The notes under the pieces: model-generated | What the model was told of the DNA's origin: nothing | Seen by the model: the letters and a program-made list of their open reading frames with translations, nothing else | Database searches by the model: none | NCBI RefSeq assembly: GCF_030812295.1 | Contig: NZ_JAUSSK010000002.1 | Coordinates: forward strand, 124,001-188,000 | Length of the DNA stretch: 64,000 nt | Direction: 5' to 3' | DNA from: Luteibacter jiangsuensis | GTDB lineage: Bacteria; Pseudomonadota; Gammaproteobacteria; Xanthomonadales; Rhodanobacteraceae | Made by a program: the position numbers and the translations under genes | In this document: in pieces, positions 3,562-37,277 of the stretch | Layout of the letters: each line of letters opens with the position of its first letter | Numbering within the stretch: position 1 is the stretch's first letter

Positions 3562-5160
3562 ATGGCAGTCCCCAAGATCGCGATCGACCCGCAGGTCGGC
3601 ATCCGCTTCGGCGACGAGAGCGGCGCCTACAGCGACATCCTGACGCCCGCCGCCGTCGCCTTCGTGGCCGGACTCCACCGCCGCTTCGATGGCCGTCGCC
3701 TCGCCCTGCTGGCGGAACGCGTGACCCGGCAACAGCGATACGACGCGGGCGAGCTGCCTGACTTCCGCGCGGATACCGCTTCCATTCGGAAAGACGACTG
3801 GTCGGTCGCCCCCATTCCCCCTGCACTCCGCGATCGCCGCGTGGAAATCACCGGCCCGGTCGAACGCAAGATGATCATCAACGCGCTGAACTCCGGCGCC
3901 AGGGTGTTCATGGCGGACTTCGAGGATTCGAGCGCGCCCACCTGGGCCAACCAGATGGACGGTCAGCGCAACCTTCGCGATGCGGTGGATGGGAGCATCG
4001 AGTTCACCAACGCCGAAGGCAAGGTGTATCGCGTCGGCAAGGATCCCGCCGTGCTGGTGGTGCGTCCGCGCGGTTGGCACCTGCCGGAGCGTCACGCGGA
4101 AGTCGACGGCGATGTGGTCGCCGGCGCGCTGGTGGATTTCGGCCTGTTCGCGTTCCATAACGCGAATACGCTGCACGAGCGGGACCGCGGTCCCTACTTC
4201 TACCTGCCGAAGCTGCAGGGCATGGAAGAAGCCGCGCTATGGAATGACGTGATGACACACGCCGAAAGTGAGCTTGGCCTTCCGTATGGAACGATGAAGG
4301 CCACGGTACTCATCGAGACGTTGCCTGCCGTGTTCCAGATGGACGAGATCCTGCATGCGTTGCGCGATCGCGTCGTCGGCCTCAACTGCGGTCGGTGGGA
4401 CTACATCTTTTCCTACCTCAAGACGTTCCGTAACCACGCCGACCGCCTGCTCCCCGAGCGTGGGCAGGTCGTGATGACCGTGCCCTTCCTCAAGGCGTAT
4501 TCGGAGTTGCTGATCCGCACCTGTCACCGCCGTGGCGCCTTCGCGATGGGCGGCATGGCCGCGCAGATACCGATCCGTGGCGACGACATGGCGAACGAGG
4601 CGGCGATGGCCAAGGTGCGCGCGGACAAGCTGCGCGAAGTCACCGCCGGCCACGACGGCACATGGGTCGCGCACCCCGCCCTGGTTCCCATCGCGCAGTC
4701 GATTTTCGATGAGCACATGCCGACGCCGAACCAGTTGCATGTGCTGCGAGAGGATGTCGAGGTGACCCGCGACGCGTTGATCGCACCCGCCATCGGCACG
4801 ATCACGCGGCAAGGTTTCGACAACAACGTCGAGGTCTGCCTGCGCTACACCGCCGCCTGGCTGGAGGGTCTTGGCTGCGTGCCGATCCATAACCTGATGG
4901 AAGACGCGGCCACCGCCGAGATAGCCCGCGCGCAGCTGTGGCAATGGCTGCATCACGGCCCGCTGGAATTCAGCGACCACGCAAGCATCGACATGGCCCT
5001 GTTCGACCACGCCCTGGCAACGCATTGCCATCGCCTGCGCGAAAGCACGCAGCCCGGCGCCGGGCGCGCCGAAGAAGCCGCCGCGCTGATCGCCGAGCTC
5101 ACCCATGCCGACGAACTACGCGATTTCCTCACCCTGCCCGCCTACGAACACCTGGCCTGA
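3562..5160 (+). CDS. aceB: Malate synthase A
   Basis: Condenses glyoxylate with acetyl-CoA to malate, the second step of the glyoxylate shunt. It has 532 residues, against 533 in E. coli AceB. Family blocks visible: [13 protein letters not shown], the [17 protein letters not shown] signature, [10 protein letters not shown], and [17 protein letters not shown], which carries the catalytic aspartate. An AGAGG ribosome site precedes the ATG. aceA follows after 25 bases, so the pair is an operon. The divergent LysR gene is its probable regulator. Confidence 0.97.
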
Positions 5161-5185
5161 AGCCTTCTTTCCACGGAGCCCTACG

Positions 5186-6475
5186 ATGAAGACGCATACC
5201 GCCGAACAGATCACGCTCGATTGGAAGAACAACGAACGCTGGAGCAACGTCGAGCGCCCCTACACCGCCGAGGACGTGATCCGCCTGCGCGGCACGGTCC
5301 AGGTCGAGTACACGCTTGCCCGGCGCGGCGCGGAGCGCCTGTGGCGCTCCATCAACGACAAACCCTACGTCAACGCGCTCGGTGCGCTGACGGGCAACCA
5401 GGCGATGCAGCAGGTGAAGGCTGGATTGCAGGCCATCTACCTGTCCGGCTGGCAGGTGGCCGCCGACGCGAACACGGCGGGCACGATGTATCCCGACCAA
5501 TCACTCTATCCGGTCGACTCCGTGCCCAATGTCGTGCGCAAGATCAACAAGACCTTGTTGCGCGCCGACCAGATCCACCATGCCGAGGGCAAGGACAACA
5601 TCGACTGGCTCGTGCCGATCGTCGCGGATGCGGAAGCGGGCTTCGGCGGTGTGTTGAACGCGTACGAGTTGATGGCCCACATGATCGAGGCCGGCGCCGC
5701 CGGCGTGCATTTCGAGGACCAGCTCGCCAGCGCGAAGAAGTGCGGCCACATGGGCGGCAAGGTGCTGGTGCCGACGCAGGAAGCCGTGCAGAAACTCGTC
5801 GCCGCCCGCCTGGCTGCCGACGTGGCCGGTGTGCCCACGCTGATCGTCGCGCGCACCGATGCGATGGGCGCAGGCCTGGTCACTTCGGACGTCGACGATT
5901 ACGACAAGCCCTTCCTCACCGGCAAGCGCACGGTCGAAGGCTTCCATGAGAGCCGGCAGGGCATCGAGCAGGCGATCAGCCGCGGGCTTGCCTATGCACC
6001 GTACGCGGACCTGATCTGGTGCGAGACCGCCACGCCGGACATGGACCAGGCGCGCCGCTTCGCCGATGCCATCCATGCGAAGTTCCCGGGCAAGAAGCTC
6101 GCCTACAACTGTTCGCCGAGCTTCAACTGGAAGAAGAACCTGGACGAGAAGACCATCGCCACTTTCCAGAATCAGCTGGGCGAGATGGGCTACGCCTTCC
6201 AGTTCATCACCCTTGCCGGTTTCCATGCGCTCAACTATTCGATGTTCCAGCTGGCACGCGGCTACCGCGATCGCCAGATGGCCGCCTACGTCGAATTGCA
6301 GGAAGCGGAGTTCGCGGCGGAGAAGGACGGCTACACGGCCGCCAAGCACCAGCGCGAGGTCGGCACGGGTTACTTCGACACGGTGAACCAGGTGATCTCG
6401 GGCTCCCTGAGTTCGCTCTCGGCACTCAGTGGCTCCACCGAGGAAGAACAGTTCCACCCCGCCTCAGCGGCCTGA
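5186..6475 (+). CDS. aceA: Isocitrate lyase
   Basis: Splits isocitrate to succinate and glyoxylate, opening the glyoxylate shunt used for growth on acetate or fatty acids. It has 429 residues. The active-site [10 protein letters not shown] motif carries catalytic C186, and the [10 protein letters not shown] and YNCSPSFNW blocks are intact. The ATG at 5186 follows a CGGAG ribosome site. An in-frame extension to 5105 would overlap aceB and lacks homology. It is the last gene of the aceBA operon; no plus-strand U-tract terminator was seen behind it. Confidence 0.97.
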
Positions 6476-6485
6476 CAGCAACGCC

Positions 6486-6524
6486 AAAAGTAAAAATCGG
6501 CCAGCGCCAAGGAGGCGGGCCGAT
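6486..6524 (-). terminator. Rho-independent terminator of the candidate small RNA
   Basis: Stem ATCGGCC/GGCCGAT (6496-6502 with 6518-6524) continues, after a 2-base bulge, as CGCC/GGCG around a 5-base loop. On the minus strand it is followed directly by UUUUU-AC-UUUU. The opposite strand has no U-run, so it acts on minus transcripts only: the candidate RNA and any read-through from the amidase gene. Confidence 0.75.
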
Positions 6525-6641
6525 CCGGGCAACGAGGGGAATGCCGCGAGAAGAAAGGCCGGGTCCCGGTGTTGGAGCGGGGGGAGGGAGGGGTATCCAA
6601 CACCGGGACGGGGCGGGCAGCCCATTAAGAGAACCGCCTGG
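6486..6641 (-). ncRNA. Candidate small RNA with three C-rich hairpin loops
   Basis: Predicted minus-strand transcript of about 155 nt. Its start is inferred about 7 nt after the -10 box at 6648-6653. Hairpin 1: perfect 14-bp stem (6563-6576 with 6596-6609) and a 19-nt loop that on the RNA strand reads UACCCCUCCCUCCCCCCGC. Hairpin 2: GGCA/UGCC (6528-6531 with 6542-6545) with loop UUCCCCUCGU. Hairpin 3: the terminator stem, whose loop region contains CCUCCUU, the core anti-Shine-Dalgarno sequence. No ORF of coding character fits. The arrangement is like Xanthomonas sX13, a C-rich-loop regulator; homology is not shown, only similar design. Confidence 0.55.
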
Positions 6642-6647
6642 TACAGA

Positions 6648-6676
6648 ATTCTCCGCCCGACCCCACCATTTGTCAA
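6648..6676 (-). promoter_or_regulatory. Sigma70-like promoter for the candidate small RNA
   Basis: On the minus strand, a perfect TTGACA (6671-6676), a 17-base spacer, then GAGAAT (6648-6653, four of six matches to TATAAT). It lies just behind the amidase stop codon and points into the hairpin-rich intergenic stretch. Confidence 0.55.
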
Positions 6677-6706
6677 CCCGTCAGTACATGAAATAAGTAT
6701 TAACTC

Positions 6707-8272
6707 CTACGAGGGAGTCTTGGCCTTCGGTTTGCAGTGCATGACGGCGGTAGTTCGGGCAGAAATGCCATCCGCGTCGATGAAACGCACATTCCATTTC
6801 ATGGTGAAGGGCTCTTTCGCCAGGCAGCTGTGCGACATCGTCAGAGGTGCGGTCGGGTCTTTGAAATAACCAGCAATGGGCCAGCACATGACCCCGGAAG
6901 GACATTCCGCAACAACGGATTCCAACCTCACCGGGAAACTGGGGAACCCAGCGAACGTGATTGATGCCGCGGCGGTCGAGTCGGACATCACTGTCACATC
7001 CGAGTAAGTTGCGTCGAAGGGCGCGCACCCGTTGCCTTGTCTAAACAGCCGGTAAGCCTTCTCAAGTCCTCGCATCGTAAGAGTTTGAAAGGTCTCATTC
7101 TGGATAGCGTCGGCATCGTCCTTATTCGTATGAAAGCCAAGCTTCGCGATGATACTAGGCATCGTAGCCAGCCGGTTCTCACCGTGATCCTTTGGATTTG
7201 CTTGCCGTGCAACTGGAAAAGTCGAGTAGAAATCATTAGAGCTCAGACTTTCTTTCATGTAGCACAACGCAAGGTCTGCTAGGCGCTTGCTTTCGGGACT
7301 CTTCATGTGATGAAAAACTCGAACACCACGAATTTCCGGGCGAGCATCCGCGTTGGTGTGCAAATGTATGGCCGCATCGACACCGAGATGATTGGCGAAA
7401 AGTGGGCGGCTCCTAATGTCTTGGTCTCGCTCCTCCATACCAAGTGCACTTTTTCCCGGGCTGTTCCATATGGAAGGAACCTCTGGAAGCATCGCCTGAA
7501 TATGATAACGCGCCGCCATGTAGTACCAGGGCATCTTGCTGTCTGCATGCCGAGTCGCGTCTGAAGACCTTGCCCGGATCACCTCTGCATCACTTCGCTC
7601 TTGAAGGAATTTCGCCAAGCGCCGCGCGAAGGAAGGTGTCCAAAAATCCTCGACAACGCGATTTACGGGATCTCGTTGGGCCCTCCAATCTTTGTAGCGT
7701 GAGTTGTAGTAAATTCCGTGTCCGGCTGAGACCAATACTCGTCCGTTCCCGAGGTCTCGTTTAGGCAGATGTTTAGCCTCTTGCGGCTGCTTAGGTACTA
7801 TTTTATCTTCCGGCCCCCGTTCTTCCGGAAAATAGAAGAATATGTCTTTGCCCTCGAACCACACATCCACCCTGTAAATTGGCGTGCGCTGCTCCGTATA
7901 CGAGATCAATAAGTCACCGATGTCGCTGACCCGTTCTTCGAACGTTATCGTGTAATCGGTAGGCAGATAGGCCTTTCCTAGTTCGACATTCAGCACATCA
8001 CCCGTATCGCTGTACCAGACATGCGGTACGACGATCGGTTGTTGCCCTGGCAACCGTTCCTCTGCGGCAACGTGACCTTGCACGATAGCGGTGAGGATCG
8101 GCTCCAGTTCGAAGCGTTCCTCCGGTGGCGCGGCGGCGGGAGCGGAGGCGGTTGCAGCCACTGGCACATGTTCCAGTGCGCCTTCCGCGTGAGCAGCCAT
8201 TGACCCCATCGTAAGAGCCATAGTCATTGCCCATGCGATTCGGCCTACAGTCCATCGCGACGACATATCCAT
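6707..8272 (-). CDS. AmiC-like N-acetylmuramoyl-L-alanine amidase with altered catalytic site
   Basis: 521 residues from the ATG at 8272, which has a strong AGGAGG six bases upstream. It has a signal peptide (about residues 1-29, ending MAAHA), a roughly 150-residue region of unknown role, an Amidase_3 domain from about 177 to 405, then a C-terminal module of about 90 residues containing four cysteines. Probable zinc ligands are H185 (SAGHG), E208 and H305 (HLHTNAD). In the LGF-x-TN block the residue that is normally the catalytic glutamate is K377 (IIAKLGFHTN, codon AAG). The enzyme may be inactive or changed, perhaps a binding or regulatory protein. The gene is clearly AT-richer than its neighbours, suggesting transfer. 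Confidence 0.8.
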   Translation of the reverse strand: MDMSSRWTVGRIAWAMTMALTMGSMAAHAEGALEHVPVAATASAPAAAPPEERFELEPILTAIVQGHVAAEERLPGQQPIVVPHVWYSDTGDVLNVELGKAYLPTDYTITFEERVSDIGDLLISYTEQRTPIYRVDVWFEGKDIFFYFPEERGPEDKIVPKQPQEAKHLPKRDLGNGRVLVSAGHGIYYNSRYKDWRAQRDPVNRVVEDFWTPSFARRLAKFLQERSDAEVIRARSSDATRHADSKMPWYYMAARYHIQAMLPEVPSIWNSPGKSALGMEERDQDIRSRPLFANHLGVDAAIHLHTNADARPEIRGVRVFHHMKSPESKRLADLALCYMKESLSSNDFYSTFPVARQANPKDHGENRLATMPSIIAKLGFHTNKDDADAIQNETFQTLTMRGLEKAYRLFRQGNGCAPFDATYSDVTVMSDSTAAASITFAGFPSFPVRLESVVAECPSGVMCWPIAGYFKDPTAPLTMSHSCLAKEPFTMKWNVRFIDADGISARTTAVMHCKPKAKTPS

Positions 8273-8374
8273 CGAAGTCCTCCTGGGAACGAGACGCAGA
8301 ACGCCGTACGCCGGCATTCACTGCCCGATCACTCTCGTCTCTTCGATGAAGGTCCCATAGCGGATCTCGCCCAC

Positions 8375-8454: not shown

Positions 8455-9954
<1,500 letters not shown>

Positions 9955-37200: not shown

Positions 37201-37277
37201 TGGTGGCTAGAGGCGGGCTCGAACCGCCGACCTCAGCATTATGAGTGCCGCGCTCTGACCAGCTGAGCTACCTAGCC
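37201..37277 (-). tRNA. tRNA-Met (CAT), elongator type
   Basis: 77 bases including an encoded CCA. 5' arm GGCTAGG pairs with the 3' arm before discriminator A-CCA. The D-arm is AGCTCAGCTGGTCAGAGC, the anticodon loop CTCATAA shows CAT, and the T-arm is GGCGGTTCGAGCCCGCC. A first pair of G1-C72 and the body sequence match elongator tRNA-Met more than initiator; a lysidine-modified tRNA-Ile(CAT) is less likely but not excluded. Confidence 0.93.

Follow-up and report, generated by a model that had tools for sequence, protein, structure and literature searches.

The window, by which we mean the whole 64-kb stretch of Luteibacter jiangsuensis DNA analysed here, carries a predicted RNA gene on its minus strand, convergent with the isocitrate lyase gene aceA, and the U-tract at the end of this RNA stops about 10 nt before the aceA stop codon. 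The promoter and an upstream element precede the RNA, followed further upstream by an amidase gene and a gene of the comM/yifB type. The features of the locus are as follows:

5105-6475, plus strand: aceA, isocitrate lyase (Pfam ICL PF00463, E 4.6e-106), convergent with the RNA
6486-6641, minus strand: RNA gene, a predicted transcript whose 5' end is inferred from the position of the -10 box and whose 3' end is inferred from the U-tract
6486-6525, minus strand: intrinsic terminator, a hairpin and then UUUUUACUUUU, with a stem kept in Luteibacter
6526-6548, minus strand: weak hairpin with loop UUCCCCUCGU, from folding; not conserved as a hairpin
6554-6560, minus strand: GGCCUUU after hairpin II, closing the conserved core in alignments, with some drift (GGCCUC, GGCACC)
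6563-6609, minus strand: hairpin II, a perfect 14-bp stem (6609-6596 / 6576-6563) with compensatory changes in relatives
6577-6595, minus strand: C-rich loop UACCCCUCCCUCCCCCCGC of hairpin II, 19 nt of C and U, the presumed pairing region
6616-6638, minus strand: hairpin I, 8 bp with the A/U-rich loop UCUUAAU, from folding, with weaker support than hairpin II
6648-6676, minus strand: sigma70-type promoter TTGACA-17-GAGAAT (-35 at 6676-6671, -10 at 6653-6648)
6681-6703, minus strand: upstream conserved element TTAATACTTATTTCATGTACTGA, an A/T-rich patch plus the TGTACTGA box, immediately 5' of the -35 box
6707-8317, minus strand: Amidase_3 gene (PF01520, E 9.1e-15), between comM and the RNA
8455-9954, minus strand: comM/yifB-like gene (PF01078 + PF13541), the usual upstream neighbour in relatives

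The signal of a structured RNA on the minus strand exceeds chance, the folding z value being -5.76 over the full 160 nt and -5.63 over the core of 88 nt, neither of which was equalled in 200 shuffles. An earlier note on this DNA had described a stand-alone minus-strand RNA gene with its own promoter, two hairpins, a terminator and three C-rich loops, and much of that layout is borne out: the TTGACA-17-GAGAAT promoter and the perfect 14-bp hairpin with its 19-nt C/U loop are both present, and the gene itself is supported by the promoter, the conserved C-rich loop and the compensatory changes in the stem. Other parts of the description fared less well. The second hairpin, with loop UUCCCCUCGU, is present but weak and is not a conserved hairpin across relatives, and the terminator stem is kept, but the CCUCCUU noted with it is not retained in the loops of other Luteibacter. 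Only one C-rich loop is conserved, the remaining loops not being kept in relatives.

The distribution of the RNA was followed with BLASTN and with a covariance model. BLASTN of the 160 nt (E <= 0.1) matches 37 of 61 relatives, often over a short length, and 22 of the 23 Luteibacter genomes, with one dominant copy per matched genome. The covariance model, built from 24 sequences and then run on 233 genomes of the family Rhodanobacteraceae, finds a place in 80 of them, and in 74 at a score of at least 34 bits, the six weak matches (25.8-29.4 bits; G072, G148, G107, G093, G142, G131) being excluded from the latter number. At this score the RNA is present in 16 of the 26 genera of the family (16 and not 18, since two genera known by weak matches alone were dropped), among them Luteibacter, Dyella, Frateuria, Rhodanobacter, Oleiagrimonas, Fulvimonas and Mizugakiibacter, and in all 23 Luteibacter genomes, each of which has a single place; in the genome of the window this is C2:130554-130645, beside aceA. 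The contig of one member (G032:C3 end) breaks in a long G run directly behind the RNA, which is probably an assembly artefact. Wider searches gave matches in 42 of 299 and 71 of 398 genomes of the order and in 2 of 274 genomes of the class, and seven matches outside the family, found as two, four and one in three such searches (G391, G297; G436, G425, G407, G384; G767), were rejected because none pairs a promoter with a C-rich hairpin loop. Searches that covered more than 40 genomes scored no more than 10-18 first-look candidates in each, so that absence elsewhere, above all outside the family, is a tentative result.

The alignments indicate that hairpin II and its C-rich loop are under strong conservation. 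The larger alignment, made with MAFFT independently of the 24-sequence alignment, contains 72 members (70 of them distinct) and omits two that are counted among the 74, namely G023 (34.8 bits) and G195, which is cut by a contig end. In it, of the 839 cells that make up the 12-bp core of hairpin II, 99.8% are paired. Double changes occur in nine of the 12 core pairs and in 78 cells, where shuffles give 17.4 (0 of 500 shuffles reaching the observed level), and sliding the partner strand by 1-3 columns leaves at most four; further pair types do not beat the shuffles (442 of 500 with 72 rows, 93 of 500 with 24 rows). The covariance model used to collect the rows contains this helix, and the count is biased accordingly. 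In the 24-sequence alignment, 98.5% of the cells of two helices are paired and 27 cells show a double change, shuffles giving 6.1. Hairpin I is paired there in 96.1% of cells, with a double change in only one of seven pairs; it is not recovered by RNAalifold from the 72-row alignment, and the first 38 nt, which contain it, have a mean z of -1.8, with z below -2 in 35 of 72 members. The C-rich loop measures 14-23 nt in relatives, is on average 70% and at least 60% C, and in every one of the 72 members has four or more C in a row. Its length differences are not multiples of three, which rules out a coding stretch, and its C/U make-up is kept while order and length drift, as is expected of a pairing tract. 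The earlier note had named the loss of stems and loops in related genomes as the observation that would speak against the prediction; when this was checked, hairpin II and its loop were found to be kept, and the prediction was not refuted.

A match to the promoter is by itself unremarkable, one being found against 1.3 expected in 3.5 kb. Its recurrence is more telling: a search expression, composed after the alignments had been viewed, finds a -35/-10 pair with spacers that are not conserved in all but two of the 72 relatives (70 of 72). Outside Luteibacter the promoter reads close to GTATTGACTT-N-TAWTATC. The upstream element, which reads TGWACTGA with an A/T patch, is preserved too: Luteibacter retains TTAATACTTATTTCATGTACTGA, and in other genera AATTTTTGWACTGACGGG occupies that place. 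With up to three mismatches allowed, the upstream box plus the -35 box occurs at two places in the genome of the window, and exactly at the RNA gene only. At the 3' end, 20 of 23 Luteibacter have a terminator 47-61 nt beyond the core, against one of 49 other members, a canonical terminator being absent within about 60 nt of the core in the remaining 48. The terminator stem is paired in 95.5% of cells in the 20 aligned Luteibacter and shows 15 double-changed cells against 5.1 in shuffles, although the number of double-changed pairs is reached in 50 of 500 shuffles.

For the gene neighbourhood of the 72 members, flanks of 0.07-2.5 kb were compared with five query proteins. The nearest recognised gene upstream is comM in 51, Amidase_3 in three and none in 18, and the nearest downstream is a Na+/H+ antiporter gene in 55, aceA in 14, a TonB receptor gene in one and none in two. 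The antiporter gene (PF00999), where it follows, lies on the strand of the RNA and 73-417 nt downstream, and in 24 of 49 non-Luteibacter loci a promoter-like TGGACG-N-TCCGATA stands directly before it. Both the RNA and aceA occur in 60 genomes, 56 of which carry the two on a single contig. The RNA lies downstream of and convergent with aceA in 53 of these 56 (three weak family matches account for the other three); the distance ranges from 29 bp to 11 kb, being within 300 bp in ten genomes and 1.9-11 kb in 43. These counts make comM-RNA-antiporter-aceA, with aceA convergent, the commonest arrangement and the likely ancestral order. The species of the window departs from it in two ways: the antiporter gene is missing at this place, and an amidase gene stands inserted 5' of the RNA.

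Searches of databases and of the literature brought up no description of this RNA. At the gathering score, Rfam 15 finds nothing at the RNA locus, its only match in the 64-kb window being a tRNA (37204-37277, minus strand); at E <= 10, the interval 6400-6760 gives six matches, the best with E 1.8 and none near its cut-off. Nor does any family match one of seven loci, four of which are members from other genera. The literature searches, mostly of papers available without subscription, found no paper on such an RNA, and a term search of PMC8632094 and PMC2864571 gave zero occurrences. Our verdict is that the RNA gene is real and conserved, of a known kind, and so far unlisted in Rfam 15 and in the literature searched.

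Several families of bacterial RNAs carry runs of C in hairpin loops. The 6C RNA of Actinobacteria and the RNAs of the alpha-r7/cuckoo type are C-rich-loop RNAs which we presume to be comparable to the RNA described here. Further examples are the UCCC-loop RNAs of Staphylococcus and HPnc5490 of Helicobacter (PMC3771888). All of these share with the present RNA C runs in hairpin loops, the presumed partners of which are G-rich sites on mRNAs, while they differ from it in bacterial host, loop length, loop number and gene neighbourhood. Nearer at hand is sX13 of Xanthomonas, which, according to the same paper, is 115 nt long and always located downstream of polA, with C runs in three loops (4C, 4C and 5C); mutants of its loops and targets show that these loops act on G-rich mRNA motifs (PMC3771888), and sX13 represses such targets independently of Hfq. 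The RNA beside aceA resembles sX13 in being compact, highly structured, intergenic and free-standing, in its C-rich loop, and in belonging to the same bacterial order; it differs in adjoining comM/aceA and in having one conserved C/U loop, which is longer. The kinship with sX13 that the earlier note had suggested is not upheld, for a separate sX13-like RNA sits behind polA of the same genome. This second RNA begins about 177 bp past the polA stop codon; it forms three hairpins, the loops of which read ACCUCCC, UCUUCCCC and CUCCCC, and ends in a U8 tract (z -5.11). We note it as a candidate counterpart of sX13 in Rhodanobacteraceae, at about 725-875 of the stretch C4:424000-426500, with the reservation that 'sX13-like' refers to place and shape. 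Of 61 relatives, 34 match the polA-linked stretch, some of them over a short length, namely 23 of 23 Luteibacter and 11 other family members, whereas 24 genomes of other families gave no match; the linkage to polA itself was read in the genome of the window only.

The reading we favour, with a confidence somewhat above even, is that of a free-standing, trans-acting sRNA gene of Rhodanobacteraceae, the C/U loop of which pairs with G-rich mRNA sites. What the comparison shows directly are its parts, that is, a sigma70-type promoter of its own with an upstream element, a covarying hairpin, a C/U loop, a terminator in Luteibacter and a place beside comM/aceA. The RNA would be transcribed, probably strongly, and the rigid stem of hairpin II would present the C/U loop, which could pair in trans with G-rich stretches at or near the translation starts of several mRNAs and so lower their translation, in the manner of the Xanthomonas RNA sX13. 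A more tentative extension, which we consider doubtful, is that this is a core-genome RNA of the family, the long C/U loop of which mimics the anti-Shine-Dalgarno tail of the ribosome and acts broadly on G-rich starts, by its composition and not through a single exact seed. With the sX13-type RNA working in parallel, the cell would then have two C-rich regulators that are independent of each other and either divide their targets or overlap in them. Overall, the case is strong for the gene, and its mechanism is a proposal.

Within the window, the predicted pairing of the loop does not single out targets, a result that bears on the broad reach over GGAGG-type ribosome sites which the earlier note had envisaged. 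It averages -10.0 kcal/mol at 46 gene starts (rough calls), -9.2 inside genes and -7.9 at 100 nt upstream; it is not enriched at these starts against stretches inside genes (Wilcoxon p 0.15), and pairing of -12 kcal/mol or lower occurs at 12 of 46 starts against 14 of 46 control stretches. The starts of aceA and aceB, at -5.5 and -5.6 kcal/mol, do not look like targets of the loop, and the link to the glyoxylate genes which had been proposed from the position of the RNA is not sustained, given this poor pairing and a distance to aceA of up to 11 kb in relatives. Across the 23 Luteibacter genomes, GGGAGGGG stands 3-9 nt before ATG at 298 places against 155 for a reversed control and is more frequent than the control in 19 of 23, a twofold excess which may merely reflect Shine-Dalgarno sequences. 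The genome of the window has 14 such places, only four of which open frames of at least 60 aa, and no gene recurs among the matches listed. A 12-nt complement of the loop at C2:972350 leads into a frame of just 27 codons.

The main rival to a free-standing gene holds that the conserved structure belongs to the 5' end of the antiporter mRNA, as a leader that controls the Na+/H+ antiporter gene in cis, and that those Luteibacter species that have no antiporter keep it as a relic or as a released leader. As in leader RNAs and other 5' UTR elements, a gene on the same strand is often next; the antiporter gene is the first recognised one downstream in most members and a canonical terminator is missing in nearly all loci outside Luteibacter, which suits a leader and counts against an sRNA. 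The loop also pairs better with antiporter starts than with sites 75 nt inside the gene (-8.5 against -3.7 kcal/mol, means of 36 genomes), yet the former value is no better than that of the average gene start in the window. A leader should always precede the same gene with no terminator between them, whereas the antiporter follows in 55 of 72 members and a terminator separates it from the RNA in ten of the 12 Luteibacter that have it. Moreover, the RNA is retained with its structure intact where aceA is directly next, which counts for a free-standing gene, and the promoter-like sequence before the antiporter points the same way, although it was spotted by eye first and is not independent. The leader thus fits Luteibacter poorly, and we consider it unlikely. 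Less probable still is that the loop serves as a decoy for a pyrimidine-binding protein and not as an antisense tract. Rho and cold-shock proteins are candidate binders of pyrimidine-rich RNA, a long C/U tract that keeps its composition while its order drifts would suit proteins that read composition, and no mRNA target emerged among the 46 genes of the window; known RNAs with such loops, however, act by pairing (PMC3771888).

An antisense action on the convergent neighbour aceA, towards which the RNA points in 53 of 56 genomes, is very improbable, since the structure is kept in the 43 genomes in which aceA lies kilobases away, the U-tract in the window ends before the aceA stop codon is reached, and the loop pairs poorly with the aceA start. 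It is, in our estimate, somewhat less credible still that the element is no RNA at all and acts as an inverted repeat in DNA or as a bidirectional terminator for aceA and comM; a long perfect inverted repeat between convergent genes, and the existence of similar though unrelated palindromes in Streptomyces, lend this some colour, but the promoter is kept on one strand in nearly all members, the C/U loop is strand-specific, and the plus-strand side has no U-run. Least probable of all is a local copy of sX13, for which the shared bacterial order, the C-rich loop and the compact hairpins could be cited. The RNA of the window lies beside aceA on C2, while polA lies on C4 of the same genome; it conserves one C-rich loop where sX13 has three; and the covariance model of the aceA-side RNA does not pick the polA-linked RNA, the stretch of which is matched in every Luteibacter genome. 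The free-standing sRNA gene, terminated before the antiporter in most Luteibacter and kept also where no antiporter is adjacent, remains the reading that we prefer.

If expressed, the locus would add to Luteibacter, Dyella, Frateuria and their relatives a regulatory RNA gene not described before, in which promoter and loop both appear to be under strong selection and which coexists with the sX13-like RNA. It would then allow testing whether two C-rich-loop RNAs in one cell have common targets, and how a C/U loop of low specificity selects among G-rich mRNAs. The covariance model of the RNA can be used for annotation.

A genome-wide pattern scan across genomes returned 65 stretches, and those from Streptomyces, Saccharopolyspora and some others were rejected as palindromes that have no promoter. 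In one genus of the family (G093, G035, G080, G107, G120), a C-rich hairpin related to this one, GCCTGCCCCGGTACCGG...CCGGTACCGGGCCAGGCACCT, occurs elsewhere than at comM/aceA and lacks the promoter. Among the Streptomyces matches of the scan, 15 of 17 share a palindrome, CCGGTACCGGTCCCTCCCC...GGGGACCGGTACCGG, in varied contexts, which is unrelated to the RNA and is perhaps a terminator.
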